Positions 298 to 46,357 of a stretch of DNA of 64,000 bases are shown here, piece after piece. A program made the position numbers and the translations under genes. This stretch comes from an uncultured Lacinutrix sp. Lineage in GTDB: Bacteria; Bacteroidota; Bacteroidia; Flavobacteriales; Flavobacteriaceae. The notes under the pieces are model-generated. The model was given only the letters and a program-made list of their open reading frames with translations, had not been told where the DNA came from and made no database searches. How positions within the stretch are numbered: position 1 is the first letter of the stretch; each line of letters begins with the position of its first letter. The DNA lies in the NCBI RefSeq assembly GCF_947500605.1, contig NZ_CANMSJ010000009.1, positions 62,001 to 126,000 of the forward strand, in the 5' to 3' direction.

Positions 298-358
298 TTC
301 CTTTTTTTTATACACTTACTTTGAATTTCAAAGTACTTTTAAATAATAAATAAAACTT

Positions 359-26839: not shown

Positions 26840-26849
26840 TGGTTAACCA
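26840..26849. promoter_or_regulatory. TGGTTAACCA operator upstream of the GntR gene
   Basis: A perfect palindrome TGGTTAACCA ending 13 bases from the regulator ATG, suggesting autoregulation. A one-mismatch copy (TGCTAGACCA) lies at 26930-26939. It is single here, unlike the tandem sites at the PUL promoters. Confidence 0.65.
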
Positions 26850-27171
26850 GTTCCTAATGCTAAATTAGGGTATATCTGTTAAAAAACATTGTACTATATT
26901 ATATTTTTTACTAAAATTTACTGATCTAATGCTAGACCAGTAAAACTCAGTTTTGCACACATTATCAAGACTAATCAAATTACAGTTAACGTGTTACTAT
27001 TAATCAACAACATTTCTTTTAGAATAAACTTGAAGAATCTTCTTCTTTATTTTATAAACATTGAAAACTATCTAGAATTAAACTCAACTATTAAGATTTG
27101 CCGACCTATAATATATTAGGTCGGACAAAACCTCAATAAGACTAATTCAAATAGTAATTCATTTATTAATA
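26850..27171. other. Spacer between GntR gene and susD1
   Basis: No coding frame is supported. It holds the degenerate TGCTAGACCA and, near the susD1 end, a perfect hairpin CCGACCTA-N8-TAGGTCGG (27101-27124), 48 bases beyond the susD1 stop. The hairpin lacks a good U-tract on either strand, so it is a weak terminator candidate or an mRNA-end stabiliser. Confidence 0.5.
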
Positions 27172-28731
27172 TTAGTAACCAGGATTGTTAGGCAATAAAT
27201 TAGGGTTTCTTGCTAACTCATCTGCTGGTAAAGGCATTAAATAATCGTTTGGAGAAAAATCTGGCTTAACACCTTCTAATCCTGAAGCTCCAAATGCAGT
27301 TGCTCCTAATTGTCTTCTAACAATATCGTACCATCTTTTCCCTTCAAAAGCCAACTCTAATCTACGCTCTTCAAGTACATCATTAGCTGTAACTGTACCT
27401 GTATGGTCTGCAGGTTCTGCACTACCAGTAACTGTTACTTCTACTCCTGAACTTAATGTAGTACCTCCCATTCTTGCTCTAGACCTCACTTCGTTTAAGT
27501 AAGTTCTTGCAAATTCTGGTTCGTTTATTTCTACTGCAGCTTCTGCTGCAATTAATAACACCTCTGCGTAACGCATCATAGAATAATTATGACTTGTTGC
27601 TCTGGCATTTCCACGAGCAAAAGCTCCAGGGAAACGTGTATACTTTGCAATATAAGGTCTGTTTTTAGCAAATTGGTGACCACTTACTGTGAAGTTAGTG
27701 TAAAGTTCTAAATTACCATTAATAGATGCTCCGTCGTCTAAACTAACTGCTCTTCTGTAATCTTGTGCATTCCAAGTAGTATATACTTCTAAAGAAGGAA
27801 CTGCTACAGACCAACCTCCACCTGAATTTCTATCGTCACCTCTAATACCCGTCATTGGTGCTATTTGATCATAAGCATTATCAGGAGCTTCAAAATTATT
27901 ATAATCTAATGCAAAAATTGGTTCTATTGAACTATCTATAACATCAGCATTAAATAAATTTTGAAAATCTGGATCTAAATCTAAATTATAAACTCCTTTA
28001 TTAAGAATAACATCTTGTGCTTCGTCAAAAGCTTTTTGAAAATTTGCTGTATCATTTGTTCCAGCCATTGTTAAGTACACTAAAGCTAAATAAGAACTCG
28101 CTGCTGCTTTAGAAGGTATTGCTCTAGATGCTTGTGTATTTGGCAACCAAGTTTTAGCAAACTGTAAATCTGCAATAATATTCTCATATACTTGTTCTGC
28201 AGATGTTTTACCAATAGTACCCATTTGAGCAGTATTATCTGGTGTTAACGCTTCACTAATATATGGTATATCTCCAAATTGTCTTACTAAATGGAAATAG
28301 TAAAATGCTCTTGCAAAATAAGCTTGTGCAGTAACTGGATTTTTAGCTTCAGCAGGTACATTTACAGATTCTGCTCCTTTAATAGCCTGATTTGCTGCTG
28401 CAATTCCTTGATATGTTTTTAACCAAAACTCACTAATCATTCCATTGTTAGCAAGAGTTGTTAACTCATTGTTTTCAACTCTTCTTGTCTCGTTAGATGC
28501 AAGATCAACCATATCTGAACGTAGCATTAATGCTACCGATAGTTTTCTTCCCCAAAACTTCTCATTAATTGCATGTGTAAGAGAACCGTTTACTGCTGTT
28601 TGGATATTGTCTGTTGTTTGAAAAAAGTCATCAGGAGATGCTAATAATCCTACTGGATCTTCTTCTAAATCTGAACAACTTACTATTCCTAGACTTACAA
28701 ATAGTAAGAATAAATATTTATATGCTTTCAT
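27172..28731 (-). CDS. SusD/RagB-type glycan-binding lipoprotein (pair 1)
   Basis: A 519-residue SusD family protein (lipobox VSCS, C19) with the N-terminal TPR-like helices (AYFARAFYYFHLVRQFGDIPYI) and the C-terminal SusD_RagB domain (YAEVLLIAAEAAVEINEPEFARTYLNEVRSRARMGG; ERRLELAFEGKRWYDIVRR; ending LPNNPGY). It caps the TonB-dependent SusC1 transporter encoded 24 bases upstream and binds alginate oligosaccharides at the cell surface (inferred from the locus). Confidence 0.93.
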   Translation of the reverse strand: MKAYKYLFLLFVSLGIVSCSDLEEDPVGLLASPDDFFQTTDNIQTAVNGSLTHAINEKFWGRKLSVALMLRSDMVDLASNETRRVENNELTTLANNGMISEFWLKTYQGIAAANQAIKGAESVNVPAEAKNPVTAQAYFARAFYYFHLVRQFGDIPYISEALTPDNTAQMGTIGKTSAEQVYENIIADLQFAKTWLPNTQASRAIPSKAAASSYLALVYLTMAGTNDTANFQKAFDEAQDVILNKGVYNLDLDPDFQNLFNADVIDSSIEPIFALDYNNFEAPDNAYDQIAPMTGIRGDDRNSGGGWSVAVPSLEVYTTWNAQDYRRAVSLDDGASINGNLELYTNFTVSGHQFAKNRPYIAKYTRFPGAFARGNARATSHNYSMMRYAEVLLIAAEAAVEINEPEFARTYLNEVRSRARMGGTTLSSGVEVTVTGSAEPADHTGTVTANDVLEERRLELAFEGKRWYDIVRRQLGATAFGASGLEGVKPDFSPNDYLMPLPADELARNPNLLPNNPGY

Positions 28732-28755
28732 AATTTCTATTTTTTAATTGTTTTA

Positions 28756-31700
28756 TTAAAATTTCACATTAAGACTTAAGTTCACTGACTTTACTGTTGG
28801 ATAATTTCCAAAATCGAAGCCTTGAACCGTATTTGCCGATGTATTATTACTTCCACTAGCTCCGAAGTAATTTACTTCTGGATCTAAACCTGAATAATCT
28901 GTAATCGTTAATAAGTTCTGTGCACTTAAAGTAATCCTTAAATTATCTAGCCCTATTTTTTCTACAACATCACTTGGAAGATTATATCCTATAGCAATAT
29001 TTTTTAATCTTATATAACTTCCATCTTCAACAAAACGAGATGAAATTTCTCTATTACTATTGTTTCCTACACGAGGAGAATTAGTATTCGTATTTGTAGG
29101 TGTCCAAGCAGAGTTGTAATAATCTCTAGTTGTATTTGCATCGCCATTGTTTAACTGCACATCTGTTAAGTTAAAGATATCTCCACCTTGAGAACCTTGA
29201 AAAAAGATACTTAAATCGAAATTTTTATAACTAAAGTTGTTTGTAATTCCAAAAGTATAATCTGGATTCGGGTTACCAATCGCTTTTCTATCATCATCTG
29301 TAATACTACCATTATCATCTATATCTCTAAATAATGGATCTCCTGCTACACCATTTGCTAAAGTTGCAGTACCTGCTGGTACAGCTCCTCCTTGATAAAC
29401 ACCTGCGTATTCATATCCCCAGAAAAGACCAACTTCTTCACCAACTCTTAGAATATAGTTATCATCAACACTAAAATAACTCGGCGCAGCATCACCAAAT
29501 AAATCGGCATCGTTTATTAAACTTACTACTTCATTTTTATTTTTAGAAAAGTTAAAATCTGTAGTCCAGCTAAAGTTATCATTAGTAATATTTCTAGTAT
29601 TTAAAGACACTTCGAAACCTCTGTTATTAATCTCACCTAAATTAGTTAAGATAGCATCGTTTAAGAAACCAAAGTATTCTGGTATTCCGTTATTACCTAA
29701 AATTAAATCTTTAGTATCAATATTATAGTAATCTAGAGAAAGTGTGATTCTATTATCTAACAATCCTAAATCAACTCCAAAATTCGCTTGGTAAGAGGAT
29801 TCCCATTTTAAATCTGGGTTAGCAGGCTGCTCTGGAGAAATAGCAAACGTAGTTTCGCCATTACTAGAAGCATATATACTTGAAAATCTAGCTAAAGATT
29901 GGTATGGGCTAATAGATGGGTTACCAGTAACACCATAACTTGCTCTTAATTTTAAATTAGATATTGTTTCGCTATCTGCTAAAAAGTCTTCGTTAGACAT
30001 TTTCCACCCTATAGCTCCAGAAGGGAAAATTGCATATTTATTATTAGCTGCAAAATTTGATGCTCCATCTCTTCTTACTGTAGCAGTAATTAAGTATTTA
30101 TCATCATAATCGTAATTTACTCTACCAAACTGAGATTGAATCTCTGTAACATTTAAATAAGAATCAGGCTGTAAAAGACCAGAAGCTGTACCTAAAGCAT
30201 GGTATGAAAAAGCATCTGAAATAAAACCTGTTCCAGCTGCAGCAAATACATCTGTTTTTGTTTTTTGATAAGAGTAACCTGCTAATAATGTTAAATCACC
30301 TTTTCCTATTTCCTTGTTGTAGGTTAAGTAATTTTCACTTAAAATATTTGTTCTTTGTGAGTTTGTAACTCTAGCTCTACCACCTACACCTCCTGCAGTA
30401 ATTTGCAGAGTTGAAGGTTGGTAAACTCCTCTTGTATCATTCTCTGTACTTAAACCAAATGTTGTTTTAAACGCAAGACCTTCTAAAAGCTCATAATTAG
30501 CATAAAAGTTTGCTCTAAAATTATCTGTAACTGTCTCATCTACTCTTTGAGATGCAACAGCATAAGGGTTATCTACCTCATCACCAACAGCATCATTTGT
30601 TGTAAATGATCCATCTGCATTATAAACACCTTTATCTGGAGCAAAACGCATAGCTAGAGAAATAACATCATCTCCACCAACAGTAACCGACCCATCAGAC
30701 TGTGTAGCAACACCATCTTTAGAACCTCTGCTTCCAAAAAGGTTAAGTCCTAATTTTAATTTATCTGATACTTGTGCATCTATATTAGATAGAAATGTTG
30801 TTCTCTCAAAACCTGAATTAATTAAAATACCATCTTGCTTAAAGTAGTTACCAGAAGCATAAAAATTTATTTTCTCTGAACCTCCAGAAAATGATAATTG
30901 ATGATTTACAGTACTACCTGAAGTATAGATTAAGTCTTGCCAATCTGTATTAGCATTACCTTGAGTATAAATAGCTGGTGTCTCACCAGATGTAATAGCA
31001 ATGTTATTATTAACATCTTGTTGGTAAGCTGCAAACTCGTCTGCGTTTAATAAATCTAATCTATTTGCAGTATTTTGAATAGCGTAAGTAGTATTTAATT
31101 CTATACTTAGCTTACCACTCTTTCCTTTTTTTGTTGTTACTAAAACAACACCGTTAGAACCTCTAGAACCGTATATTGCAGTTGCAGAAGCATCTTTTAA
31201 CACCTCTAAAGATTTAATATCGTTTGCTTGAGGCATGCTTGCTCCAACAAAACCATCCACTACAATTAGCGGAGAACTATTAGCACTAATAGAAGTATTA
31301 CCTCTAATCTTAATATTTATAGGAGCTCCTGGCTCACCACCATTGTTAGATTGCACAACTACACCAGCTGCTCTACCTTGAAGCGCTTGTGCTGCATCTA
31401 AAACAGGAAAAGCATTTAATTCATCGGCAGTAACCGAAGAAACAGCTCCTGTAATATCACTTTTCTTACGACTACCATAACCAACAACTACAACCTCTTC
31501 TAGTTTGTTAGTATCTTCTTCTAAAGAAGTATCAATTGTCGTTTTATTAGTTACTTTAATAGATTTAGTTACAAATCCTACAAAAGAAAATTGAAGTAAA
31601 TCTCCTTCTTTTGCACTTATTTGATAGTTACCATCAAAATCTGTACTTGTACCATTACTTGTACCTGATACTAATACATTAACACCTGGAAGTCCCATGT

Positions 31701-31809
31701 TGTCTAATGATGAAACCACTTTTCCTTTTATGGTTAAATTTTCTTGCGCAAAAGCAGAAATACACATAAAAAGTACTGCAAATAATGCCGACTTAGCTTT
31801 TAAATTCAT
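28756..31809 (-). CDS. SusC/RagA-type TonB-dependent transporter (pair 1)
   Basis: A 1017-residue outer-membrane transporter. Signal peptide 1-21 (ending SAFAQ), CarboxypepD_reg domain about 25-95, plug domain about 105-225 (ITGAVSSVTADELNAFPVLDAAQALQGRAAGVVVQSNNGGEPG; LVVDGFVG; SVLKDASATAIYGSRGSNGVVLVTTKKG-like), then a 22-strand barrel ending in SLNVKF. TonB energises uptake of alginate oligomers. It heads a two-gene operon with susD1. The promoter region carries tandem TGGTNNACCA sites. Its first 85 residues are nearly identical to those of SusC2. Confidence 0.93.
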   Translation of the reverse strand: MNLKAKSALFAVLFMCISAFAQENLTIKGKVVSSLDNMGLPGVNVLVSGTSNGTSTDFDGNYQISAKEGDLLQFSFVGFVTKSIKVTNKTTIDTSLEEDTNKLEEVVVVGYGSRKKSDITGAVSSVTADELNAFPVLDAAQALQGRAAGVVVQSNNGGEPGAPINIKIRGNTSISANSSPLIVVDGFVGASMPQANDIKSLEVLKDASATAIYGSRGSNGVVLVTTKKGKSGKLSIELNTTYAIQNTANRLDLLNADEFAAYQQDVNNNIAITSGETPAIYTQGNANTDWQDLIYTSGSTVNHQLSFSGGSEKINFYASGNYFKQDGILINSGFERTTFLSNIDAQVSDKLKLGLNLFGSRGSKDGVATQSDGSVTVGGDDVISLAMRFAPDKGVYNADGSFTTNDAVGDEVDNPYAVASQRVDETVTDNFRANFYANYELLEGLAFKTTFGLSTENDTRGVYQPSTLQITAGGVGGRARVTNSQRTNILSENYLTYNKEIGKGDLTLLAGYSYQKTKTDVFAAAGTGFISDAFSYHALGTASGLLQPDSYLNVTEIQSQFGRVNYDYDDKYLITATVRRDGASNFAANNKYAIFPSGAIGWKMSNEDFLADSETISNLKLRASYGVTGNPSISPYQSLARFSSIYASSNGETTFAISPEQPANPDLKWESSYQANFGVDLGLLDNRITLSLDYYNIDTKDLILGNNGIPEYFGFLNDAILTNLGEINNRGFEVSLNTRNITNDNFSWTTDFNFSKNKNEVVSLINDADLFGDAAPSYFSVDDNYILRVGEEVGLFWGYEYAGVYQGGAVPAGTATLANGVAGDPLFRDIDDNGSITDDDRKAIGNPNPDYTFGITNNFSYKNFDLSIFFQGSQGGDIFNLTDVQLNNGDANTTRDYYNSAWTPTNTNTNSPRVGNNSNREISSRFVEDGSYIRLKNIAIGYNLPSDVVEKIGLDNLRITLSAQNLLTITDYSGLDPEVNYFGASGSNNTSANTVQGFDFGNYPTVKSVNLSLNVKF

Positions 31810-31901
31810 AATTAATTTTTAATTTTAAGTTAGTTAATATTATTATTTACTTAAAAACATAATCATACAGAAGTTGTAAATAGTTTATTACTTTTGCCGT
31901 G

Positions 31902-31980
31902 TTATGTTTTTAAACATAATTACTTCCCTCCAAAGAAGTATTTTTCTAAAAAGGATAGGTGTGCACCTGTCCTTTTTTTT
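31902..31980 (+). ncRNA. Candidate antisense RNA or leader structure of susC1
   Basis: Three hairpins in a row: TTATGTTT-TT-AAACATAA (31902-31919), TACTTC-N8-GAAGTA (31921-31940) and AAAGGATAGGT-GTGC-ACCTGTCCTTT (within 31948-31977), ending on the plus strand in a T9 tract. A -7 match TACTTTTG lies at 31889-31896, placing a plus-strand start near 31903. No good -33 is present. Read on the minus strand, the same hairpins form the susC1 leader. Bacteroides PULs are known to use cis-antisense RNAs at susC leaders. Confidence 0.35.
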
Positions 31981-32004
31981 GTCCAAATCAATGTGTAAAA
32001 AATA

Positions 32005-32068
32005 ATTGGTTTACCAGATTGGTTTACCAAATATAAACAAATTTTTATCTTATACAACGTTTTCGTAA
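32005..32068 (-). promoter_or_regulatory. susC1 promoter with tandem operators
   Basis: Two TGGTTTACCA palindromes at 32007-32016 and 32020-32029, 13 bases apart. On the minus strand the -7 box TATATTTG (32028-32035) overlaps the second. After a 19-base spacer the -33 position reads GTTG (32055-32058), inside TACAACGTTTTCGTAA (32053-32068). The same layout occurs at susC2. A repressor bound here would block both the -7 box and the start site. Confidence 0.75.
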
Positions 32069-32128
32069 TAAAAAGTTAAATATTGTTAATTATTTATTAG
32101 AAAAATAAAACAAAAGTTCATAAATAGA

Positions 32129-32155
32129 TAAAGCCCTATTTTATAGGGCTTTATC
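32129..32155 (-). terminator. Terminator downstream of the PL7 gene
   Basis: A near-perfect palindrome ATAAAGCCCTA-N5-TAGGGCTTTAT, 56 bases beyond the PL7 stop. It separates the susC2-to-PL7 operon from the susC1 promoter. Confidence 0.8.
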
Positions 32156-32210
32156 TTATTAGTAATTATTAAGTACAAAAAAAATATATTAGTATAAGAA
32201 TCTCTACATA

Positions 32211-33134
32211 CTAATGTTTAACTTCTAAATCATAGTATCTCACTTTAGCATAAGCACCCTCATCTCTTGATTGAAAATAGTTACCTGCTTTAAAGTAATT
32301 TTCAAAAATCCCCCATTTTCTCATATGAATGTTCTCATATACTTTAAATTCATTTTTATTTAAAGCGATTACCATTTTACCATCAGAAACTTTAACTTCT
32401 AGTATAAACTTTTTAAAACCAACTTCTTGCTCAAAATTAAAACCTTCATCGTCTCCCCAAGCATCTTTATGTAGCATTTCTTCAGGAGTTGCATTTAAAT
32501 TTTTTAGCACTTTTGTTTTTACTCTAATTTTACCTTTATCCCAATATATTTTTAATATTGGAGGTGCATTATTATCTTTTTGACCTATTAAATCTCTCTG
32601 CTCATCTGAAAGTCTTCCATGAATTTGCATTACAATTACTCTATGGTATTTACCATCGGCATCTTTAGTAACATCTTCCATGGCTAACTTACCTTTCATA
32701 TATGCACCTTCTTTAAAAGTCCAATTAACATTATTATCTCCAGGCACCATTTGCTCTCTTAACTCGGATCTCGAGTATTTGGTATTAGCAGTCGTTGCTT
32801 TACTAGGATAAGAATAAAACACTAATGCACCCTTTGTAGAATCGTTATACATGTATGGTTTAATCTCTTCATTTGTCGCATAATTAGTAACAACTTCTTT
32901 TCCTTTAAAACTTTTTGCTTTACCATTTTCTCCTTCAGGAATAGTAAGAGACCAATGTGTTAAATCTATTTCAGGAAGCTTAAATTTCTTTTTTCTTTTC
33001 TTCTTTTTTTTAGACTCTACTTTAACTTCCGATTCAGAGACACTTCCTTTTTGCGTTTGGCAAGATGCATTTAGTGCAATAAATACCATTAACACAATAC
33101 TTAATATTTGCTTATTCAAGTGTTTCAACATCAT
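32211..33134 (-). CDS. PL7 alginate lyase lipoprotein
   Basis: A 307-residue lipoprotein (lipobox NASC, C25) with a Lys/Arg-rich linker at 42-50 (KKKKKRKKK) and an alginate_lyase2 (PL7) beta-jelly-roll. All three family motifs are present: RSELRE at 122-127, QIH at 170-172 and YFKAGNYFQ at 280-288. QIH-type PL7 enzymes usually act on guluronate-containing blocks. It is probably a surface endolyase that starts alginate breakdown. It is the last gene of the susC2 operon. Confidence 0.93.
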   Translation of the reverse strand: MMLKHLNKQILSIVLMVFIALNASCQTQKGSVSESEVKVESKKKKKRKKKFKLPEIDLTHWSLTIPEGENGKAKSFKGKEVVTNYATNEEIKPYMYNDSTKGALVFYSYPSKATTANTKYSRSELREQMVPGDNNVNWTFKEGAYMKGKLAMEDVTKDADGKYHRVIVMQIHGRLSDEQRDLIGQKDNNAPPILKIYWDKGKIRVKTKVLKNLNATPEEMLHKDAWGDDEGFNFEQEVGFKKFILEVKVSDGKMVIALNKNEFKVYENIHMRKWGIFENYFKAGNYFQSRDEGAYAKVRYYDLEVKH

Positions 33135-33179
33135 TATAATTTAGTTCGTTATGCTTTTATTAATAGTATAGAAATTATA

Positions 33180-34709: not shown

Positions 34710-34730
34710 AATATTAAATTTTAGAATTTT

Positions 34731-35933
34731 TTATTCTTTTACTACTATATCGAATGCATCTAGCCTAGTCTCAACTCCTGAATTTGAAGCAAAAATAATT
34801 ACTGATTCATTATCACCAGCCTCAAAGGTGATAGCATGTTTTTTGAAAACATTATCAACTCTCCCAACGTTACTATCTGTTCTAGAAGCTACAATATTTT
34901 CTTCTAATTGTGCTTCTGCATAAGTTGATGTACTTGGCTTTAATATTGACACCTTCATCTCTCCAAAATTATCCTCTTCAAAGGCAGTAAAATAAGTCAA
35001 AACATATTCTGCTCCTGGAGTAACTTCAATTTCTTGGTAAGCAACTCTTTCTCCACCTCCTGGAAATTTTGCTGCCTGCGTACCATCTGGTAAATTAGGT
35101 GCATCAATTGGGTTGCTATCTGTATTAATCTGGATTACAGTGGTACCTGCACCAAACGGGCTCCATGCATCGTTACTAGGAGTTTTCCATGAATCTCTAC
35201 CATCTCCTGTTCCATCGAATAAGCTATTATCTTCAAAACTAGGCTCAGATATTTCTGGTACTGGAATTGTTGGTACAGCTTGATTAACTGTAATTATTTT
35301 TTCTGTATAATTTAATTTTCCAAGATTATCTGTTACCGTTAAACCAACTGTATACTCGCCTGGATTAGGAAAAGAAAAGATTATCTCTCTATCTTGTAAG
35401 GTTGCCGGCTCTAAAACAGATATTTGATTTTCTAAATTAGAAACATTTTCCAATGTTTCATCTGTAAGTGCTTCTTCAGCAATAACTAATTGATTTTCTA
35501 AATCAACAATTTGAGCTTGTAATACTATAACTCTAGCAGGATCTGTCTCGCAAGGTATTTTAAATTCTAATTTAGCTATTTCTTTTTCAATTGCAACAAC
35601 AGTTGCCAACTCTGCCTCTATTAATTGTTCTAAAATAGGTAAGTTTTTGTTGATTAAATCTACTCCATCAGATGGTGTAATTGACCATTGGTAATCTGTA
35701 CCATTTACTGCCAAATTTGAACCTGCAAGAAAATTAAAATCATAGTCAGCCCATAGTTCAACGTCATTACAATCAAACTCCGAACGAGTAACATCGGTTA
35801 CGTTATAAAAAGGCGTAGGACCTGTAATATCTTCAAGATCTCCTACATTGGCCAAGTCATCACTTACGCAAGCTGTTAAAGACACAAACGTACCTAAAAC
35901 GATATATTTTATTTTAAATAAATATTTTTTCAT
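34731..35933 (-). CDS. Surface glycan-binding lipoprotein with split PKD domain
   Basis: A 400-residue lipoprotein (LTAC, C22). A PKD-like fold spans about 55-217 but is interrupted at about 97-177 by a charged helical, coiled-coil-like insertion (LEQLIEAELATVVAIEKEIAKLEF ... VLQAQIVDLENQLVIAEEALTDETL), then resumes with IIFSFPNPGEYTVGLTVTDNLG. The C-terminal part (about 235-400) is a carbohydrate-binding-like jelly roll (RVAYQEIEVTPGAEYVLTYF). It lies between susD2 and the PKD protein and is probably part of the surface alginate-binding complex. Confidence 0.82.
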   Translation of the reverse strand: MKKYLFKIKYIVLGTFVSLTACVSDDLANVGDLEDITGPTPFYNVTDVTRSEFDCNDVELWADYDFNFLAGSNLAVNGTDYQWSITPSDGVDLINKNLPILEQLIEAELATVVAIEKEIAKLEFKIPCETDPARVIVLQAQIVDLENQLVIAEEALTDETLENVSNLENQISVLEPATLQDREIIFSFPNPGEYTVGLTVTDNLGKLNYTEKIITVNQAVPTIPVPEISEPSFEDNSLFDGTGDGRDSWKTPSNDAWSPFGAGTTVIQINTDSNPIDAPNLPDGTQAAKFPGGGERVAYQEIEVTPGAEYVLTYFTAFEEDNFGEMKVSILKPSTSTYAEAQLEENIVASRTDSNVGRVDNVFKKHAITFEAGDNESVIIFASNSGVETRLDAFDIVVKE

Positions 35934-35945
35934 AATTATTAGGTT

Positions 35946-37538: not shown

Positions 37539-37544
37539 AATTAA

Positions 37545-40500
37545 TTAAAATTGAAAGTTAACTCCTGCTGAAATTGTTCTCACTATAGGACCATCTCCTC
37601 TTTGATAACCTGATGTTAAGGCAGTGTTAGCATTATTAGATGTTTGCCCAGCAGCTTCAGGATTAAATCCTTCATAACCTTTGGCTGTAAAGAATAATAA
37701 ATTTTCACCTGTTATATAAAATCTTAGTTTATTAAGATTATTTCTAGTTATAAATGATTCTGGCAGTGTATAACCAAAAGTCAAATTTCTTAAGGCAATA
37801 TAAGAAGCGTCTTGTATATGAGCATCTGTAAACCTTCTGTGAACTGTTTTATCTGCATCTGGAAAATTAGCTACTTCGTTAACTGCTGATTCACTAGCAT
37901 AATACAATTGATCTAAATCTGCAACTCTTACCTCAGCACCATGAGATCCTTCCCATTGAAAAGAAAAGTCAAAATCTTTAATTCCGTAATCGGCACTAAA
38001 TCCCCAAGTAAAATCTGGATAAGGACTACCTAACTCTGTTCTATCTTCATCATCAATAACACCATCATTATTTAAATCTTTAACATAAACATCTGCATAC
38101 TGGTTATTAAATCTATTAAAAGGATTATCTACCCACTCTAATGGAATTTCTTTTTCATAAACCCATCCATAAAAAGAAGTTATTGGTTGTCCCACAGTTG
38201 CAATAAACTCTGTTGGCCTAGTATCTTGATCAATTCTAGAAATAATTTGCTGATTATTACCTAAATCCTGAACAGTATTTCTGTTTAAAGAAAATTGCCC
38301 TGATACGTTTAATCTTGATTTTTCGTTAGCGAATATTCTACTATTCAATTCTAACTCTACACCTTCATTTTTAACTTCTCCTATATTTTGCAGCCAATTA
38401 TCTGTCCCATAACTAGCTGGAACCGGAGCAAAAAGAATTAAATCTTCACTTGTTCTTGTGTAGTAATCTAGAGATAAACCTAAAAGACCTCTACCAAAAG
38501 TTACATCTATTCCAGGATTAAACTCTACTAATTTTTCCCATCCTAAATCTTGATTTGCTAGAGTTACACCCTTAACACCAGTCTGTCCATTGTATCCAAT
38601 AGTACTAAATGTTTCTTCAAATCTATATAGAGATTCAAATATGTTGTTTGATATTTCGTTAGAACCTGAAATACCATAACTAGCTCTTAATTTTAAAAAT
38701 GTTACAAAATCACTAGATGACAAGAACTCCTCGCTAGACATTAGCCACCCAACTGAAGCAGCTGGAAAGAAACCAAATCTGCTATTTGAACCAAATCGAG
38801 TACTACCATCGGTACGTGCAGATAGTTGTAAAAGGTATTTTTCGTTATAGTTATAATTTACTCTTCCAAAATATGAAACCAATTTATCTGTTCCATTATT
38901 TGTAAATGTAGTTCCTCCGTCTGCAATAGCAATATTATTATTAAAATCGTCTGTGAAACCTACAGCTTCTGATTCTTGAACAGAAAAATCTCTGCGTGTA
39001 TATTCAAATCCAAGGATTGAATTAAAACTATGCTTTCCAAAGTCTTTATCATATTTAAGTAGAGATTCAAATGCATATTGATTTAACTCATCTCTTCTTT
39101 CTAATCTATACGATTCTTGTTCTCTATTTTCTTGACCCAATAAATAATCGTTTTCGGTAGTTTTATTATGTCTAATAACTCCAGAAAAAGATTGTCTAAA
39201 ACTAAGACCTTTTGCTAATTTAAAATCCATATAAGTAGAAGCATTTAAACTTAGCTTTTGCTTTACTCTAGATCTTTCAAGAAAATGTACCAAAGGATGT
39301 ACATTTTTTGTGGTAGATAAAGTTAAACCACCAGATGTTAAAGGGCTAACCAATGGAAGTCCTGTTGAAGGATCTCTAGCTATTGCTCTAGGATTATTAG
39401 GATCCACTGTAAAAACATGATCAAAAGCTCTTGAAAAACCATAGCTTCCTACACCAATGTTTTCAAATTGAGATCCAGCATCTCCTGGATCTGACTGAGT
39501 AATATATTTTAAATGTTCTTCGTTTAAGTATAATGGAATATGACCTAATTGCCTTAATGGATCTGTAAATCTTGCAGGTAATTTATCTTGGTCGTTATAA
39601 TTAACACGTAAATTCCCTCCAAATTTTATCTTTTTGTTTTTTGTTTTGCTATCAACTTTTATTCTAGCGTTATATTTCTTAAAATTATCTGTTATGGCAA
39701 TACCTTCGTCTTCAAGGTAACCTAAAGATGCAGTATAACTTGTTAGTTCTGATCCTCCTCTTGCTGATAAAGAATGACTTCTTACAATACCTCCTTCAAA
39801 AACTTCATCTTGCCAATTAGTTTCACCACCTCCTAATGATGCAATAAAGTCCATAGCTTCTAACTCTGCATAGGCTGTATTGTAATCGTTAATAATTCTA
39901 TTATAATTTTCACTGTCCGGTGAGATACCATTAACTGTACTTTGCAAACTATTTAATCTACTTCTTTCTTGAGCAATAGAAGTATTAAAATTTTCGTTTT
40001 TATTAGAATACCTAACACCTGTAAATGCATTGTATGAGAATTGTGTTTTACCTGCAACACCTTTTTTAAGTGTTACTAAAATTACTCCGTTTGCGCCACG
40101 AGACCCATAAATTGCTACAGAAGAAGCATCCTTTAAAACACTAATAGAATCAATATTATTATTATCTATAGAACCTAATATATCTGAATCTGTTCCTAAA
40201 ACAACACCATCAACAACAATTAAAGGTGACGAAGAACCGGTAATAGAACCAGGACCTCTTAGTGTAATTTTAGAATCTCCACCAGCTTCTGAACCTACTG
40301 TTTGTATTCTTAAACCCGCTACTTTTCCTTTAAGTGCATCTTCCACACGAGAAACTGCAACATCTTTAAGATCCTTGGCAGAAACTTTAGTTAAAGCACT
40401 TGTTATATTTTTTTGTTTTTGATCTCCATATGCAACAACAACAACTTCATCTAATTGATTAGCATCTTCTGCTAGTGAAACATTTAAAATTGCATCAGTT

Positions 40501-40760
40501 ATAACTGGCATTAGTTTAGTTTCAAAACCAATAAAAGAAAAATGAAGTACTTCTCCTTTTTTTACTTTAATTTGATAATTTCCATCAAAATCTGTACTTG
40601 TTCCATTACTTGATCCGGCTACAGTTACATTTACACCTGGAAGTGGCATATTGTCTATTGCCGAAATTACTTGACCTTTTACGATTAAGTTTTCTTGGGC
40701 AAAAGCAGATATACACATAAAGAGTATCGCAAAAATTGCCGATTTAGCTTTTAAATTCAT
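37545..40760 (-). CDS. SusC/RagA-type TonB-dependent transporter (pair 2)
   Basis: A 1071-residue outer-membrane transporter with signal peptide (1-21), CarboxypepD_reg domain (about 25-95), plug (QKQKNITSALTKVSAKDLKDVAVSRVEDALKGKVAGLRIQ; LVVDGVVLG; SVLKDASSVAIYGSRGANGVILVTLKKG) and barrel ending ISAGVNFQF. It heads the operon susC2-susD2-SGBP-PKD-PL7. The first 85 residues nearly match SusC1, while plug and barrel diverge. The promoter carries tandem TGGTNNACCA sites. Confidence 0.93.
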   Translation of the reverse strand: MNLKAKSAIFAILFMCISAFAQENLIVKGQVISAIDNMPLPGVNVTVAGSSNGTSTDFDGNYQIKVKKGEVLHFSFIGFETKLMPVITDAILNVSLAEDANQLDEVVVVAYGDQKQKNITSALTKVSAKDLKDVAVSRVEDALKGKVAGLRIQTVGSEAGGDSKITLRGPGSITGSSSPLIVVDGVVLGTDSDILGSIDNNNIDSISVLKDASSVAIYGSRGANGVILVTLKKGVAGKTQFSYNAFTGVRYSNKNENFNTSIAQERSRLNSLQSTVNGISPDSENYNRIINDYNTAYAELEAMDFIASLGGGETNWQDEVFEGGIVRSHSLSARGGSELTSYTASLGYLEDEGIAITDNFKKYNARIKVDSKTKNKKIKFGGNLRVNYNDQDKLPARFTDPLRQLGHIPLYLNEEHLKYITQSDPGDAGSQFENIGVGSYGFSRAFDHVFTVDPNNPRAIARDPSTGLPLVSPLTSGGLTLSTTKNVHPLVHFLERSRVKQKLSLNASTYMDFKLAKGLSFRQSFSGVIRHNKTTENDYLLGQENREQESYRLERRDELNQYAFESLLKYDKDFGKHSFNSILGFEYTRRDFSVQESEAVGFTDDFNNNIAIADGGTTFTNNGTDKLVSYFGRVNYNYNEKYLLQLSARTDGSTRFGSNSRFGFFPAASVGWLMSSEEFLSSSDFVTFLKLRASYGISGSNEISNNIFESLYRFEETFSTIGYNGQTGVKGVTLANQDLGWEKLVEFNPGIDVTFGRGLLGLSLDYYTRTSEDLILFAPVPASYGTDNWLQNIGEVKNEGVELELNSRIFANEKSRLNVSGQFSLNRNTVQDLGNNQQIISRIDQDTRPTEFIATVGQPITSFYGWVYEKEIPLEWVDNPFNRFNNQYADVYVKDLNNDGVIDDEDRTELGSPYPDFTWGFSADYGIKDFDFSFQWEGSHGAEVRVADLDQLYYASESAVNEVANFPDADKTVHRRFTDAHIQDASYIALRNLTFGYTLPESFITRNNLNKLRFYITGENLLFFTAKGYEGFNPEAAGQTSNNANTALTSGYQRGDGPIVRTISAGVNFQF

Positions 40761-40826
40761 AATTAGTTATTAATTATTAAGGTTAGATAGTTAGTTAATA
40801 TTTACCATTAAATAGTATTTCAAAAA

Positions 40827-40855
40827 AAAAGAACAGCTATAAATGCTGTTCTTTT
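40827..40855 (-). terminator. Intrinsic terminator-like hairpin in the susC2 leader
   Basis: Perfect stem AAAAGAACAGC / GCTGTTCTTTT with a 7-base loop. On the minus strand it is followed by a T9 tract (40822-40830 as A on plus); on the plus strand by T7. It lies about 45 bases after the predicted susC2 start site, i.e. within the leader, the same distance as the susC1 hairpin. Confidence 0.65.
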
Positions 40856-40879
40856 TTTATTGTAAAACAGTTTTATAAT

Positions 40880-40943
40880 ATTGGTTTACCAATCTGGTCA
40901 ACCAAATATATATAAAATTTTGTTAAATACAACGTTTTCGTAA
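40880..40943 (-). promoter_or_regulatory. susC2 promoter with tandem operators
   Basis: Palindromes TGGTTTACCA (40882-40891) and TGGTCAACCA (40895-40904), 13 bases apart. The minus-strand -7 box TATATTTG (40903-40910) overlaps the second. A 19-base spacer leads to GTTG (40930-40933) inside TACAACGTTTTCGTAA (40928-40943). Box order, spacing and the 16-base upstream box are the same as at susC1. Confidence 0.75.
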
Positions 40944-41136
40944 ATGATAAATGTGAAAATAGCATATAATTAAGTTAAAATAACAATGTTTCTCTTTAAA
41001 GACAATGCTTTTCAACTTTACTATAAACCCCTAACACATAGCATTAAAGATATTTATTTAAAAATCTACCTCCATACTAAAGCTCAACAATTAAACAAAT
41101 AAGCTTTAATTATCAGAAGTTTTTAATCAATTTTAA
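40944..41136. other. Spacer between the susC2 promoter and KdgF
   Basis: No gene and no clear terminator for the upstream PL6-PL17-KdgF operon is seen. The sequence is AT-rich. Confidence 0.45.
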
Positions 41137-41511
41137 TTAAGACTTATCTCCAAAATAAGACACTGCATCTCCACTTAAGAAATCTTCTCTTACAGGACTA
41201 AACGTATCAATTAACTGACCTGCTTCTAAACAAACTGCACTGTGCAATAAATTAGGTTCGATGTAAACACCATCACCTGCTTCTACAATTTTCTTTTCTC
41301 CATCAATTTCAAATTCAAATTTACCTGAGACACAGTAAGTAGCTTGTGTATGAAAATGCTGATGTGGTGCACCTAATGCTCCTTTATCAAACTTTACGCT
41401 TACCATCATGATTTGGTTATCGTAACCTAAGAATTTTCTTGACACTCCTCCTCCAAGTTCTTCCCATTCCATATCCTTTGTGATAACATACTTTTCACTA
41501 AATCTTTTCAT
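41137..41511 (-). CDS. kdgF: KdgF-like cupin, uronate ring-opening
   Basis: A 124-residue single-domain cupin. Metal ligands are H50, H52, Q56 and H90 (GAPHQHFHTQATY; LLHSAV). KdgF converts 4,5-unsaturated monouronates, made by exolyases, to linear ketouronate (DEH). The place directly after the PL17 exolyase gene, 20 bases away, fits this. No signal peptide, so it is cytoplasmic. Confidence 0.9.
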   Translation of the reverse strand: MKRFSEKYVITKDMEWEELGGGVSRKFLGYDNQIMMVSVKFDKGALGAPHQHFHTQATYCVSGKFEFEIDGEKKIVEAGDGVYIEPNLLHSAVCLEAGQLIDTFSPVREDFLSGDAVSYFGDKS

Positions 41512-41531
41512 AATTTTTATTCTATTTGTTT

Positions 41532-43793
41532 TTATTTAAAATAGTAAGAACCCGACCATTCGTAATTCTTATCATTAATTTTTACATTATGTTTCGTTTC
41601 TTTTGAAGCATCTGCATTTACAGTTATAAACAACTTTGTGTTTCCGTTTACATTTATTATTTCAATTGCAGTGTACTTTTCTTCATCCAAAACAACTTTT
41701 AATTCTTTTATAGCGCTATTTGAATTTATTGCAGATTCTGTAACAGGACTATAACTTCCATGCGCTTCTATCGCAGAAACAAAAAGTGTGTTTTTAGTAT
41801 TTTTTCGTCTTAACATTAAAGCAGCTTCACGTCTTAAGTTAAATTCTGGATCGTTAGCTCCAATTCTAGTAAATAATAATTCATCATTAGTACTAGTTAC
41901 AGATGTTAAAGTGTAAAACCTACCTTTATTTAACCATGATAATTTACTATTATCGCTAGAAGCTTTGGCAGTTCCTTCAACAAATAAATGTTGATATCCG
42001 TTTTTGTCTCCTAGTGTCGTTAATGATTTAGGTACTTTATAATCAAAATTTGTTTCCACAACTTGCCCTAAGAAGTAATAAGGAAAATCATATTTATTTG
42101 CTTTATTTGAAGTCACCTTCATTATATCTAACACATATGGTTTTTCAAAATCTTCATCTTTTATAATTGCCATTGTACGTAACATCTCTGTACCCGGATA
42201 TGCATTATCCTCTTTTGCACTCGCTACTTGCACAGCTTCATTCTCTGAAGAAAAATAATTTAAAACTGAATGGTGCTTACTTCCTATTTCATACTTTCCT
42301 GTAAAATGAGAAGTTTCATTTTGTGTTACTGTATTATGTGCTATAGTTTGTTTTGCCCAAGTTTTATTTTCCTTAAGGTAATTTCCACCACCTTTTTGCT
42401 CTATGTTTACAAATCTTGCTAAACCGTAATCTTGTATAACCTCATCACCTTTTTCGTATAACGAATAAGATAATTTATCGTAATGACCATGACTAGAACC
42501 TTGCGCTGCATATTTAAAAACCAACTCAACATCTTTATTTCTTAATATAGCAACACCTCCTTGTGTTCCTTCTGGTCCATCCGAAAGATTAATTGATTTT
42601 TTATTAAACTGTTCTGCTTTACCATCTTTAACACCAAGCGCTACTGCCAAACCAGAATCGTCTAATAAAACTCGATCTTGTGCTGATGCTATAGATAATA
42701 AACCAGGATCTTGACCTCCAAAATGATAAGAAATATCTACTGCAGTAACTAATGCACTTGTGTAATAAGACATTCCTTTTTGTCCATCGTTAAGCGGAAA
42801 GAAATCTCCATCGGCATCAGATAAATTCAATAATGCATTTATTGATTTTAGTAAAACACCATCTTTATATTCAAATATTTTTAGTTCTGGTTTTACATTA
42901 TGCAATCCTTCAGCAAAAATTAAAAAAGGATACATAGCGTAACGTTGGTAATATGGCCCTTCGTTATAATAACCATCTGGAGAAAAAGGCTCTTCTATAT
43001 TTGCTAAGAAACCTGCTTTTCCATCTTTATTTAAAAAACCTCCGTCGTCGTCTTTCGCCTTAGTATCTAATTTCAAATCTTTAATTCCGTACAAAGCACG
43101 ATCTATTAATTCTTGGTCATCCATTACTAAACCAATCATACCAACAGCTGCATTTCCCCAAGTACTATGGTTATGTACTCTTTGATAAAATTGTGGGCTA
43201 TCTACTGAAATATGATCTGCGAATGGTTTAAATAAATTTTCTTCTAGCTTCGTGCGTTCCTCTTCAGATAAATAATTATAAACACAATCGTAAGCTTGAC
43301 TTACATACACTAACCAGTTAGAATCGTTTAAACATTGCCAAAATAATTTACCTCTAGCATAAGATCTTGTTTTTGGGTGTAATGGTAATGTTTTGTACAT
43401 TTCCTCGTATTGCATTAACATGTCTTTTACATATTTCGCATACTTTTCGTCATCTAAAATCTGATACAAAACACCTGCTTTCTGCAAAACAATCATATTA
43501 CGTTTGTGGCGCACATGTGTGTATCCTCCAGAATAATCTAATGGTATTGGCGTTTCTATCCCTAAAGCTATTTCAGCATCAATTTCTTCTTTAACCTTTT
43601 CTAGTGTTTTATCGAAAATAGGAACATTACCCAACTGTGCTCTAATATCTTTAACACCTTGAGCAGTAAGAATTAACTTAGGATGCTCTTGAGATGTAGA
43701 GATTTCCTTTTTATTGTCTGCAACAGCAGTCTCTTTCTCTTTGCAAGAAAAACTAAACACTAAAAGAATAACTATTGCTAATTTAAATTTCAT
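41532..43793 (-). CDS. PL17 oligoalginate lyase lipoprotein
   Basis: A 753-residue lipoprotein (FSFSC, C17). Residues about 35-370 are the (alpha/alpha) toroid alginate_lyase domain, with RVHNHSTWGNAAVGM (catalytic N/H pair as in Alg17C) and YYNEGPYYQRYAMYPF (catalytic Tyr). Residues about 380-750 are the heparinase II/III-like beta-domain, with SHGHYDKLSYSLYEKGDEVIQDYG (conserved His). It releases unsaturated monouronate from oligoalginate ends, probably in the periplasm. Between PL6 and kdgF. Confidence 0.93.
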   Translation of the reverse strand: MKFKLAIVILLVFSFSCKEKETAVADNKKEISTSQEHPKLILTAQGVKDIRAQLGNVPIFDKTLEKVKEEIDAEIALGIETPIPLDYSGGYTHVRHKRNMIVLQKAGVLYQILDDEKYAKYVKDMLMQYEEMYKTLPLHPKTRSYARGKLFWQCLNDSNWLVYVSQAYDCVYNYLSEEERTKLEENLFKPFADHISVDSPQFYQRVHNHSTWGNAAVGMIGLVMDDQELIDRALYGIKDLKLDTKAKDDDGGFLNKDGKAGFLANIEEPFSPDGYYNEGPYYQRYAMYPFLIFAEGLHNVKPELKIFEYKDGVLLKSINALLNLSDADGDFFPLNDGQKGMSYYTSALVTAVDISYHFGGQDPGLLSIASAQDRVLLDDSGLAVALGVKDGKAEQFNKKSINLSDGPEGTQGGVAILRNKDVELVFKYAAQGSSHGHYDKLSYSLYEKGDEVIQDYGLARFVNIEQKGGGNYLKENKTWAKQTIAHNTVTQNETSHFTGKYEIGSKHHSVLNYFSSENEAVQVASAKEDNAYPGTEMLRTMAIIKDEDFEKPYVLDIMKVTSNKANKYDFPYYFLGQVVETNFDYKVPKSLTTLGDKNGYQHLFVEGTAKASSDNSKLSWLNKGRFYTLTSVTSTNDELLFTRIGANDPEFNLRREAALMLRRKNTKNTLFVSAIEAHGSYSPVTESAINSNSAIKELKVVLDEEKYTAIEIINVNGNTKLFITVNADASKETKHNVKINDKNYEWSGSYYFK

Positions 43794-43813
43794 ACTATTT
43801 TATTTATTATGTA

Positions 43814-43840
43814 CATTTTCGACTGCACTCAATTTTGCTT
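43814..43840. repeat. Degenerate intergenic repeat fragment
   Basis: The stretch TTTTCGACTGCACTCAATTTTG between PL6 and PL17 resembles a TTTCGACTGCGCTC-type repeat common between flavobacterial genes. Only a short remnant is present. Confidence 0.35.
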
Positions 43841-43864
43841 CTATCTTATTTGTCTAAAAAACAA

Positions 43865-46171
43865 TTAGTACATTAGTTTCATGACTAAATTTTCTTCTGT
43901 TTTTATTTTACCTGAACTCATTAAACTATTTCCTGACTCGATATTATTTTTTGCTCCCCACAAAATAGAAACAAACTGAACCTTATTATTTTTAAATGTG
44001 TTTTTAGAAATATTTACATTTACAATACCTCTATGGTTTAATAAGATTTTGTTTTTCTCGTTAGCACCACAATTAATAAATGTACTATTAGTTACTAGAA
44101 GATTTCCACCAATTGTAGACTCATCGTACCCACCTCTATAATAATCTACCACGTTTTGCTTTACGTTATTAAACGTACAATTATCGATGGTTAAATACTC
44201 TGTATTATAATCTCCTCTATCGTTTGTTTCTTCAGATAATTCTATTCCGTTTTCGCAATTTAATATTGAAGTGTTTTTAAAAGTAATCTCTTCAGAAAAA
44301 GATTGCTTGTACACTTTTAATGCGTAGTTGAAATTACTTATTTCAGAATTTAAAACTTCTAACCCAAAATGATTAGACATGTTATTTTTTAAACTAGCAA
44401 AGGCATATTGAGTATCTGTCCCTTTTAACTTTATCTTATTTAGTATTAACTTTCCGTAAGGATGTAATTGAAAAGCAGGCGTCTCTTTCTCTCCATTATA
44501 TAGAATTTCAACATCTCCTTCAGATTCAATAGTTATAGTTTTATTAATAATTAACGGTTGAGCAATAGCGTAAGAACCTTCTTTTAACTTAAGAACATCT
44601 CCACTTTCTGCAGTCTTTAGTTTTACTACTAATTCTTCCGTGTTTGTAACTGTGTGAGTTGTTTCTTCTTTCTCTTCAACTTCGTTAGAAAACCAAGTTG
44701 CTCCATATTTATCTTTGTTTAAAAGATCTAAACTAACATTCTCCGAACTCAATATTGCTCCAATTTTATTAGACTGTTCTCTAGAGTTTCCTAATAAATC
44801 ATTAGTAATTGTTTCGAAATCGAATCCTTTATAGATCTCTACATCATCGAAACCTGTAGTTGGCACAGAAAGCTCTTTACCTATTTCTGTTAAGCTTAAT
44901 TCTTTAGAAATTAATCCATGCGCATTTGTTATTTCTACACCGCTATTATAAATAACATTACTTTTAAAAGTAACACCATCTGCCTTATCATGCTCAATAA
45001 TAGGATTTGCATCTCCAACAGAATTATAAATCACATTATTTACAACCTCTGTTCTTAAAGGTCTTGCAGAACGAATTTCAGATTTTGGCAAAACATCAGC
45101 TTGCGCAATGTTTGTTCCTACACCAAATTGCCAAGGCGAACTAGAATCTACATAAGTATTATAAGCAACTACAACATCTGTAACTTGATTATAACGGTTT
45201 AATGGCGATTTAGGAATCCCGTTCATTATTGCTAATGGGCTTCTAAAATTCTTTCCTTTTAATTTATAAAACAAGTTGTTTGTAACCCAATGTCCAGTAT
45301 TGACAATTCTAATTCCTCCATATTGCTCGTTAACACCATCACCAATAAAATAGTTTCCATCTATAGAGCAATAATTACCATGCCTTGTAACTACCGAACC
45401 TTCACTCTTAAAAAACACATTGTTTTTAATAATATTAAAGTTTGTTTTACTTGAAATAATTTCCACCTCTCCATTACACTCTTCAAATAAGTTATTTGCA
45501 ATAGTTGTATTACTTGGTGACATAGAAGTAAAACTACTTCCTAATTGAATTGTTTCTCCTCTTGCACCACCTTTTCTAGGTCTAGGTCCAAAATGATTAT
45601 TTACAATTTTATGGTAATTTCTAATACTTTGGTTCCCTTTTAAGTCCACCCTAACTGTTGGTCCTCCATTTGTTTTACCAGCAATATAACAGTGCTCTAA
45701 TGTATTGTGCTTTCCATAAAACTGCACCCAAAGATTATCTTGATCACGTTCAAGATTATTAAAATCTAGAATCACACAGTTTGAAACACTACTATTGTTA
45801 GCTACTTTGCTTTCACTTGTTCTAAAAGCAATTACGTTTTGAGTTGGAGAATGTCCGTTTCTAAAAAACAAACCATTAACCTTTAAATAATTTCCACTTA
45901 TTTCTAAATTAGACTCTCCTTCTATAAAAACCCTTCCTTCTGTTTCTGCTTTTAATACTATTGGGCTGTCTTCTGTTCCTTCTCCAATAAATTTAATTTC
46001 AACATCTTCCCAAACACCATTTGCTAAAATAATATTATCTCCAGGTTTAGAATCTTTAATAGCATTGTTTAGTGCCTCAACATCTGAGACTTTAATAGTA
46101 TTGATCCCTAACGGCTTTTTATCACAAGCGATAAATAAGATTAACACAGAAAATAGAATTATTTTTTTCAT
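43865..46171 (-). CDS. PL6 alginate lyase lipoprotein
   Basis: A 768-residue lipoprotein (FIAC, C16). The N-terminal beta-helix (about 25-475) is a PL6/chondroitinase-B-type lyase with the catalytic base and acid at K178 (VRVDLKGNQ) and R204 (KGGARGETIQLGSS). A second right-handed beta-helix fills about 505-768, as in two-domain PL6 enzymes such as AlyGC. It degrades guluronate-rich or mixed alginate at the surface or periplasm. It heads the PL6-PL17-kdgF operon and has its own promoter with tandem TGGTNNACCA sites. Confidence 0.92.
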   Translation of the reverse strand: MKKIILFSVLILFIACDKKPLGINTIKVSDVEALNNAIKDSKPGDNIILANGVWEDVEIKFIGEGTEDSPIVLKAETEGRVFIEGESNLEISGNYLKVNGLFFRNGHSPTQNVIAFRTSESKVANNSSVSNCVILDFNNLERDQDNLWVQFYGKHNTLEHCYIAGKTNGGPTVRVDLKGNQSIRNYHKIVNNHFGPRPRKGGARGETIQLGSSFTSMSPSNTTIANNLFEECNGEVEIISSKTNFNIIKNNVFFKSEGSVVTRHGNYCSIDGNYFIGDGVNEQYGGIRIVNTGHWVTNNLFYKLKGKNFRSPLAIMNGIPKSPLNRYNQVTDVVVAYNTYVDSSSPWQFGVGTNIAQADVLPKSEIRSARPLRTEVVNNVIYNSVGDANPIIEHDKADGVTFKSNVIYNSGVEITNAHGLISKELSLTEIGKELSVPTTGFDDVEIYKGFDFETITNDLLGNSREQSNKIGAILSSENVSLDLLNKDKYGATWFSNEVEEKEETTHTVTNTEELVVKLKTAESGDVLKLKEGSYAIAQPLIINKTITIESEGDVEILYNGEKETPAFQLHPYGKLILNKIKLKGTDTQYAFASLKNNMSNHFGLEVLNSEISNFNYALKVYKQSFSEEITFKNTSILNCENGIELSEETNDRGDYNTEYLTIDNCTFNNVKQNVVDYYRGGYDESTIGGNLLVTNSTFINCGANEKNKILLNHRGIVNVNISKNTFKNNKVQFVSILWGAKNNIESGNSLMSSGKIKTEENLVMKLMY

Positions 46172-46303
46172 AAAAAGAACTTATATAATTGGTTTAAAAA
46201 ATTTATGCCAACTTTAAAAATTATAATAAATTACATAAGCAGAAAGCTGAGCTGTAGAAGCATTTTAATGCGCTATATTATAACATGATTAAGCATAAAA
46301 CAA

Positions 46304-46357
46304 ACTGGTTTACCAAATTGGTTTACCAAATATAAGTATATTTAAGTAGCGTGCAAA
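46304..46357 (-). promoter_or_regulatory. PL6 promoter with tandem operators
   Basis: Two TGGTTTACCA palindromes at 46306-46315 and 46319-46328, 13 bases apart. The minus-strand -7 box TATATTTG (46327-46334) overlaps the second; exactly 19 bases further is a TTTG -33 box (46354-46357). It lacks the AACG-N4-CGT box of the susC promoters. Confidence 0.78.

Follow-up and report, generated by a model that had tools for sequence, protein, structure and literature searches.

Marine flavobacteria are important consumers of alginate, one of the main polysaccharides of brown algae. The alginate locus of an uncultured Lacinutrix sp. raises the question of how polymer uptake and monomer use stay in step, as its susC1, susC2 and PL6 lyase promoters carry paired operators and its monomer-catabolic genes carry none. 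We analysed a stretch of 64,000 nucleotides (nt) around this locus (hereafter the window; NZ_CANMSJ010000009.1, positions 62,001–126,000 of the forward strand; source genome GCF_947500605.1, 3,497,241 bases in 40 contigs). Control here probably has two linked layers: a ladder of operators for an AusR-type repressor, and a putative antisense small RNA (sRNA), encoded opposite the susC1 leader, that would act on the operon of a major facilitator superfamily (MFS) transporter.

Operators on a 13-bp ladder

The palindrome TGGTNNACCA has eight exact matches in the window, where 100 shuffles gave a mean of 0.56 and a maximum of 2. Our motif scan bore out the pairs that an earlier note on this DNA had placed at susC1 (32007/32020), susC2 (40882/40895) and PL6 (46306/46319, gene product matching Pfam Chondroitinas_B). 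With the tandem scan, and for susC1 also an alignment of arrays, these define tandem operators with a 13-bp step at 32007–32029, 40882–40904 and 46306–46328. A single operator (26840–26849) stands 12 bases ahead of the gntR start codon, and the eighth match lies at 62393 within an open reading frame (ORF, 62256–63020). The overlap of a palindrome with a −7 box (TATATTTG) that the note had described is real, except that the overlapping palindrome is the first of the pair and not the second in reading direction, because all three promoters read on the minus strand. Accordingly CAAATATA, which is TATATTTG read on the minus strand, occupies 32028–32035 (susC1; seen in both array alignment and motif scan), 40903–40910 (susC2) and 46327–46334 (PL6). 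The other palindrome of each pair is downstream, covering the expected start site, and the 19 bases claimed between −7 box and −33 TTG are the same in all three promoters, as counted by eye.

A genome-wide scan for the 13-bp tandem, which the note had proposed as a check, returned five places against none for the reversed motif (the control for genome, locus and family scans), with a chance expectation of about 0.004 for TGGTNNACCA pairs at +13. Single copies of TGGTNNACCA show no enrichment in the whole genome (116 versus 112 reversed), which rules out the lone palindrome as a regulon marker. Among relatives, 80 loci picked solely by similarity of the GntR protein (best 80 of 311) hold 292 motifs versus 35 reversed, with at least one site in 79 and the 13-bp tandem in 62. 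Site pairs up to 60 bp apart in these loci are spaced by 13 (103 pairs), 26 (25) or 39 bp (2) and by no other distance, and the control gave no pair. The window and the 80 loci together contain 100 arrays, two of them too close to a locus end for alignment; TAnnTTTG begins 6 bases ahead of the first palindrome, in reading direction, in 90 of the 98 that can be aligned. The −7 box therefore runs into the operator, and later rungs extend towards the transcribed side. The tandem is present in 69 of 299 family genomes, with no control match, and in 10 of 395 genomes drawn across the phylum, all ten within the 41 of Flavobacteriaceae; the reversed tandem matched three genomes of this draw, one of them in Flavobacteriaceae.

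An exact site lies within 80 bp ahead of gntR in 47 of 81 loci and is missing from 34. Among those 47 promoters, 23 have a −7-like box (at least 5/6) at −19 and 15 have one at −20, any other offset occurring at most 10 times, and exact TAnnTTTG at −19 is found in 7. The gntR promoter thus seems to use the same ladder, its single site in register with rung 2 and rung 1 weak or degenerate in many relatives; autoregulation of gntR through 26840–26849 is predicted.

The AusR-type repressor

The gntR/FCD gene (26126–26827, minus strand) encodes a protein with GntR and FCD domains (Pfam, 9.1e-19 and 1.5e-24). Its 81 aligned orthologues share 89 invariant residues, including R41, R51 and R55 of the helix-turn-helix (HTH) and D151, H155, H200 and H222, which we take to be the usual FCD metal-site pattern. 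The note had named this gene as the obvious source of the binder, with the role of AusR, and the evidence agrees: a GntR HTH and an FCD domain are encoded within the alginate polysaccharide utilization locus (PUL), and PUL promoters carry one to three palindromic operators (four in one relative). Zobellia AusR is reported to bind its promoters at operators that are single, double or triple (PMC7874173), and PMC8286568 and PMC8073546 concur on its role in alginate regulation. The Zobellia galactanivorans regulon is likewise governed by a GntR-family repressor encoded in the alginate PUL, with one to three operators at alginate promoters, so that the operator system is the AusR system of Zobellia, known in kind. 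The accessible portions of these three papers make no mention of a 13-bp ladder, of a −7 box fused to it or of an antisense RNA, although Dudek et al. 2020 may hold some of this.

Steric repression across the −7 box by the 26126–26827 protein is the best reading of these sites, since the motif travels with the gene (79 of 80 loci), and to that extent the earlier prediction stands. Its further proposal of two dimers on one DNA face fails: with 10.5 bp to a turn, a 13-bp step covers 1.24 turns, which rotates the neighbouring dimer by about 86°. A strict ladder of this kind therefore suits dimers that abut or interlock around the helix. GntR-type dimers do sit side by side on close repeats in Escherichia coli, where NanR occupies (GGTATA)3 (PMC8012715), but NanR sites are direct repeats whereas those of AusR are palindromes every 13 bp. 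A NanR-like N-terminal extension for cooperativity is absent, the Pfam HTH match beginning at residue 16 and leaving only 15 residues ahead of it, against the 32-residue extension of NanR.

A putative antisense sRNA in the susC1 leader

Between the operators and the start codon of susC1 (28756–31809, minus strand), the leader (about 31810–32021) contains a hairpin whose opposite strand is predicted to encode an sRNA of about 80 nt (31901–31980, plus strand; structure, model search and covariation). The RNA would comprise hairpin A (31901–31920), hairpin B (31921–31940, loop CCTCCAAA) and a terminator hairpin (31948–31977) with GTGCAC at its tip and a U-tract running to 31980, behind a −7 box of its own (TACTTTTG, of the form TAnnTTTG; 31889–31896, plus strand). 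Judged by its sequence features, the element has the make-up of a small RNA gene that faces the 5′ region of susC and has a promoter and a terminator of its own.

A pattern requiring both a terminator-type hairpin and a second hairpin was found in 55 of 77 susC leaders that could be assigned to operators. Aligned in the antisense orientation, these leaders give 16 pairs by RNAalifold, with 98.5% of cells pairing, and a covariation of 0.130 versus 0.099 when shuffled (0 of 500 shuffles reach it) and at most 0.065 when slid. Wobble pairs indicate which strand is structured: the terminator stems read antisense contain 491 Watson–Crick pairs, 52 G–U pairs and 7 mismatches, and read sense 491, 3 and 56, every pair being standard in 49 of 55 antisense but only 8 of 55 sense. 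This asymmetry points to the antisense strand as the structured one. The U-run on that strand is longer than the T-run on the sense strand in 54 of 55 leaders, its folding is more stable in 46 of 55 (mean z −4.67, versus −4.03 for the sense strand), and exact TAnnTTTG lies 25–75 nt ahead of hairpin B in 44 of 55, compared with 7.6% of shuffled stretches.

A model of the RNA finds one high-scoring copy in its own genome (91.4 bits; next matches at most 33.5 bits) and matches 56 of 81 sources. Across the family it is present in 64 of 298 genomes, as a single copy in 61 and as two in 3, and 55 of these 64 fall among the 69 tandem genomes (Fisher 5e-37). All 30 copies retrieved (the best 30 of 67 matches) have an operator 3′ of the RNA, no more than about 155 nt from hairpin B. 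A draw across the class, at a stricter E-value, gave 2 matching genomes of 295, both Flavobacteriaceae.

Sense-strand transcription attenuation was rejected for susC1: the hairpin is terminator-like, yet it is on the antisense strand that its pairs are preserved. Nor is the element a general terminator of TonB-receptor leaders, as only three of 28 in this genome show an antisense terminator by a crude finder (alginate susC1, alginate susC2 and one other). In the susC2 leader, which has no hairpin B, a terminator-like hairpin that works in both directions by sequence (40822–40860) lies between the AusR promoter and the start codon; it may be an attenuator or the remnant of an RNA gene that has decayed.

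In window positions 26000–46600 no Rfam 15 family exceeds its gathering score (matches with E ≤ 1 are mir-6, twice, and Ref66, all far below theirs), and Flavo-1, taken from PMC9723704, has no match there. Rfp18 of the same paper was considered by its description. That paper reports antisense RNAs in Flavobacterium psychrophilum and suggests such studies for flavobacteria. Among the titles and abstract openings listed in searches of the open-access literature, none described an antisense RNA or sRNA from an alginate locus or from a flavobacterial susC leader. The predicted sRNA would thus be a family without a match in Rfam 15 or the literature search, its target backed by co-variation.

By layout rather than sequence, it resembles the DonS-type RNAs of Bacteroides PULs, which are 78–128 nt long and antisense to susC homologues (PMC7366714), but it is flavobacterial, tied to AusR operators and accompanied by a co-varying match in trans. 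FopS and GibS of Bacteroides thetaiotaomicron are sRNAs that regulate PUL mRNAs through base pairing (PMC11697453); the FopS sRNAs are 14 paralogues that act near start codons, whereas the Lacinutrix-type RNA is mostly single-copy with a proposed target far from the start codon. DonS and FopS together establish that RNA control of susC genes exists in Bacteroides (PMC7366714, PMC11697453).

A proposed target in the gntR–MFS gap

No operator precedes the MFS, SDR or kdgK genes in this genome, as the earlier note had observed; exact and one-mismatch sites are intragenic and the gaps are empty. Its suggestion that the monomer-catabolic genes may be controlled differently seems right, since the MFS leader has a two-part match to the antisense RNA. 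A hairpin with loop GTGCACAA (26088–26111, minus strand) forms the first half of the proposed target and a G-rich site, AGGAGGGATAGTAATTATGTTAAAAAGG (26035–26062, minus strand), the second. The first gene beyond them encodes the MFS transporter (24611–25912, minus strand), followed by SDR (23764–24528), kdgK-like PfkB kinase (22654–23676) and KDPG aldolase (21974–22642) genes. The target hairpin starts so close behind the gntR stop that a shared transcript of gntR and MFS is probable.

In the window AGGAGGGATAGTAATTATGTTAAAAAGG is nearly the exact complement of the hairpin A–B stretch of the RNA. For 51 of the 55 loci the best match between the RNA complement and the MFS leader of the same locus was scored; it exceeded shuffles at the 0.05 level in 24 loci, of which 20 also passed 0.01. 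Over 41 long leaders the predicted duplex averages −30.1 kcal/mol with the own leader and −24.6 with leaders of other species (Wilcoxon 4e-5), against −22.7 for reversed and −18.8 for reverse-complemented leaders; the own leader ranks among the top three in 14 of the 41 (mean rank fraction 0.30). The second match joins the terminator loop of the RNA to the hairpin loop TGCAC(A/G), mostly 15–31 nt past the gntR stop. RNAs with a GTGCAC terminator tip face a long MFS leader in 26 of 26 cases, other RNAs in 15 of 27 (Fisher 1e-4). Searched as a pattern, TGCACR followed after 22–52 bases by GGAGGGA occurs at exactly two places in the genome, the susC1 and MFS leaders, and at none in the control. 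G–U pairs in the MFS hairpin number 23 on the mRNA strand versus 5 (36 stems clear, 8 unclear), so this hairpin is structured on the mRNA strand, the opposite of the susC leader. A search for further trans targets of the B loop alone was abandoned, as TTTGGAGGGAAG with at most one mismatch has 9 places in both genome and control.

Co-variation of the RNA loops with the proposed target

A second set comprised the 29 best-scoring RNA-positive family genomes, own genome left out, all of which encode a close AusR orthologue. Two fail the RNA pattern and two have no MFS gene found beside gntR, leaving 25 leaders; 24 are long, of which 23 have the TGCACR loop and 18 a match at 0.05. Seven records are identical to the first set, and merging the two without these (near-identical records may remain) gave 71 loci with 58 long leaders. 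Among them the 32 RNAs of GGAGGG type face GGAGGG in 28 MFS leaders and neither of the other two types in any. The GAAGGG type meets its own type in 10 of 10 leaders and the AGAGGG type in 4 of 4, again with no cross-match. In the remaining 12 RNAs the loops are unusual: a single one, GAAGAG, fits its target, three face another type and eight face none of the target types sought. The last base of the other loop varies in concert as well (A–A 10, G–G 31, G–A 2, A–G 0; Fisher 3e-8; 15 rows incomplete). Complementarity to a second mRNA is thus both conserved and co-varying, and the predicted RNA–target pairing is well supported.

The gap between gntR and MFS is at least 140 nt in 31 of 32 loci with a G-rich loop and in 10 of 21 others, and drifted RNA loops tend to accompany a short gap. 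In the 25 loci classed as having no RNA (one of them, L059, misclassed, and some, such as L088, with the susC leader off the contig) the gap is below 90 nt in 16, the MFS gene has operators in 4 and neither holds in 5. Tandem operators lie in the gntR–MFS gap of five relatives, four of them without an RNA-model match and one (L083) with both operators and RNA.

A proposed model

We propose that AusR represses susC1, susC2, PL6 and two distant genes through palindromes on the fixed 13-bp ladder, whose first rung includes the end of the −7 box, and that the sRNA adds a second layer. In cis the whole sRNA would be complementary to the leader of susC1; in trans the loop of its terminator and its C-rich loop would pair with the hairpin loop and GGAGGG site of the gntR–MFS intercistronic RNA. 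When alginate is absent, AusR would shut off susC1, the convergent sRNA would be made undisturbed and MFS–SDR–kdgK would be silenced while gntR is still expressed. When alginate is present, susC1 transcription would cross the sRNA gene and the susC1 leader would soak up the sRNA, releasing the operator-less catabolic genes. We lean slightly towards this full scheme, in which one sRNA relays the repressor's decision to an operon without operators and the susC leader doubles as a sponge. Repression of MFS is the proposed direction, though pairing might activate instead.

A precedent for the cis step is MtlS of Vibrio cholerae, a cis-antisense RNA whose level is inverse to transcription of its target transporter gene; a transporter gene that is transcribed can thus reduce the RNA antisense to it (PMC6597380). 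MtlS belongs to another phylum and concerns another sugar, and the Lacinutrix RNA seems to have a second mRNA target as well. Pairing past the gntR stop could give gntR and the catabolic genes separate fates. RyhB acting on iscRSUA achieves a comparable separation of gene fates within one transcript. If the scheme is right, the RNA would uncouple the repressor from the catabolic genes with which it shares a transcript, and would do so throughout the alginate-degrading Flavobacteriaceae.

Several results weigh against it. Expression of the sRNA and binding of AusR to these operators are both predicted from sequence. No conserved −33 box for the sRNA was found in the 55 loci, and neither hairpin of the leader was picked up by a generic terminator scan, possibly owing to a stem that continues into the U-tract. 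The pattern is missing from 22 of 77 susC leaders, window susC2 included, and the RNA model from 25 of 81 sources, some with the susC leader off the contig. The sense strand, too, folds well. Plain alignment beats shuffles at 0.05 in just 24 of 51 leaders and the terminator-loop match alone in 17 of 26, and 4 of the 32 GGAGGG-type genomes have no exact target. On a tree of 68 AusR proteins (three rows lost, all GAAGGG-type) each trait changes just 4–6 times, and loop retention 14 times, so the cell counts overstate independence; supported independent pairs agree, on average, in 1.9 of 2, 2 of 2 and 4.8 of 5 cases, too few for P < 0.05. The target lies about 70–200 nt upstream of the MFS start, leaving the mode of action not obvious, and the notion that it hides the start region was rejected, as z averages −0.08 and is −2 or lower in 0 of 45.

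Alternative explanations

The susC and MFS leaders might instead share a sense-strand element (loop TGCACR, then GGAGGG) that some protein or other factor recognizes, with the antisense RNA as a by-product. The letters and their order are identical in both leaders, a common reader would likewise make the two change together, and the sense strand of the susC leader has considerable fold stability. We nonetheless consider this unlikely, given that the terminator hairpin stays intact on the antisense strand and is mostly broken on the sense strand, and that the antisense −7 box and the longer antisense U-run are retained. Slightly less likely again is an RNA that works only in cis on susC, as DonS does, the MFS match being a relic or chance. 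DonS-type RNAs reduce expression of the susC homologues to which they are antisense (PMC7366714), and the RNA structure is kept in genomes with a short gntR–MFS gap; against this stand three loop types matched without a single cross-match, the hairpin loop in 23 of the 24 long leaders of the second set and the absence of the two-part pattern from the rest of the genome.

It seems very improbable that the ladder is read by a regulator distinct from the GntR/FCD protein of the locus. AusR binding is itself a prediction, but the motif recurs in nearly all loci chosen by that protein only, every RNA-positive genome of the second set has a close orthologue, and AusR is reported to bind such operators in Zobellia (PMC7874173). 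Hardly credible is that the MFS-leader signal is a Shine–Dalgarno-like GGAGGG with a small upstream ORF, common to both leaders: an ATG does follow 8–9 nt on in both window leaders, yet it is absent from many relatives, and the GAAGGG and AGAGGG types deviate from a Shine–Dalgarno-like motif while still matching each other.

Variants and further genes of the ladder

The rule of a 13-bp ladder fused to a −7 box makes AusR targets findable in flavobacterial genomes, unexpected ones included. Elsewhere in the Lacinutrix genome a tandem precedes a PL7-type (Alginate_lyase2) gene (L002 1501–1523; ORF 533–1444, minus strand), whose product has a lipoprotein-like start as judged by eye. A tandem with a −7 box also precedes an Nramp-family metal transporter gene (L001 1501–1523; ORF 166–1419, minus strand), which would be an unexpected member of the alginate regulon; a distant Nramp gene (34% identical) in genome G099 has the tandem as well (L030 1501–1523). 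In L033 it stands 12 bp ahead of a gene for a shikimate-kinase-family (SKI) protein (991–1488, minus strand), and in L071, L072, L090, L111 and L121 the products of tandem-controlled genes have Por_Secre_tail (type IX secretion) and no other Pfam match at 0.001.

Among relatives, L071 has four consecutive operators on the ladder (4240–4288), L069, L075, L120 and L122 are, with L083, those with operators in the gntR–MFS gap, and in L084, L091, L092, L096, L098–L101 and L109 exact sites 26 bp apart flank a middle rung that is a one-mismatch palindrome, for example TGGTTATCCA. Finally, GAAAACGTT occurs at 32056–32064 and 40931–40939 of the window (minus-strand reading). Of the 98 arrays, 24 have it 34–35 bases ahead of their first palindrome, and these make up 24 of its 41 occurrences in total (both strands, 1.63 Mb). 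Overlapping the −33 region, it may be a second operator, perhaps that of a LacI-type regulator, whose sites it resembles.

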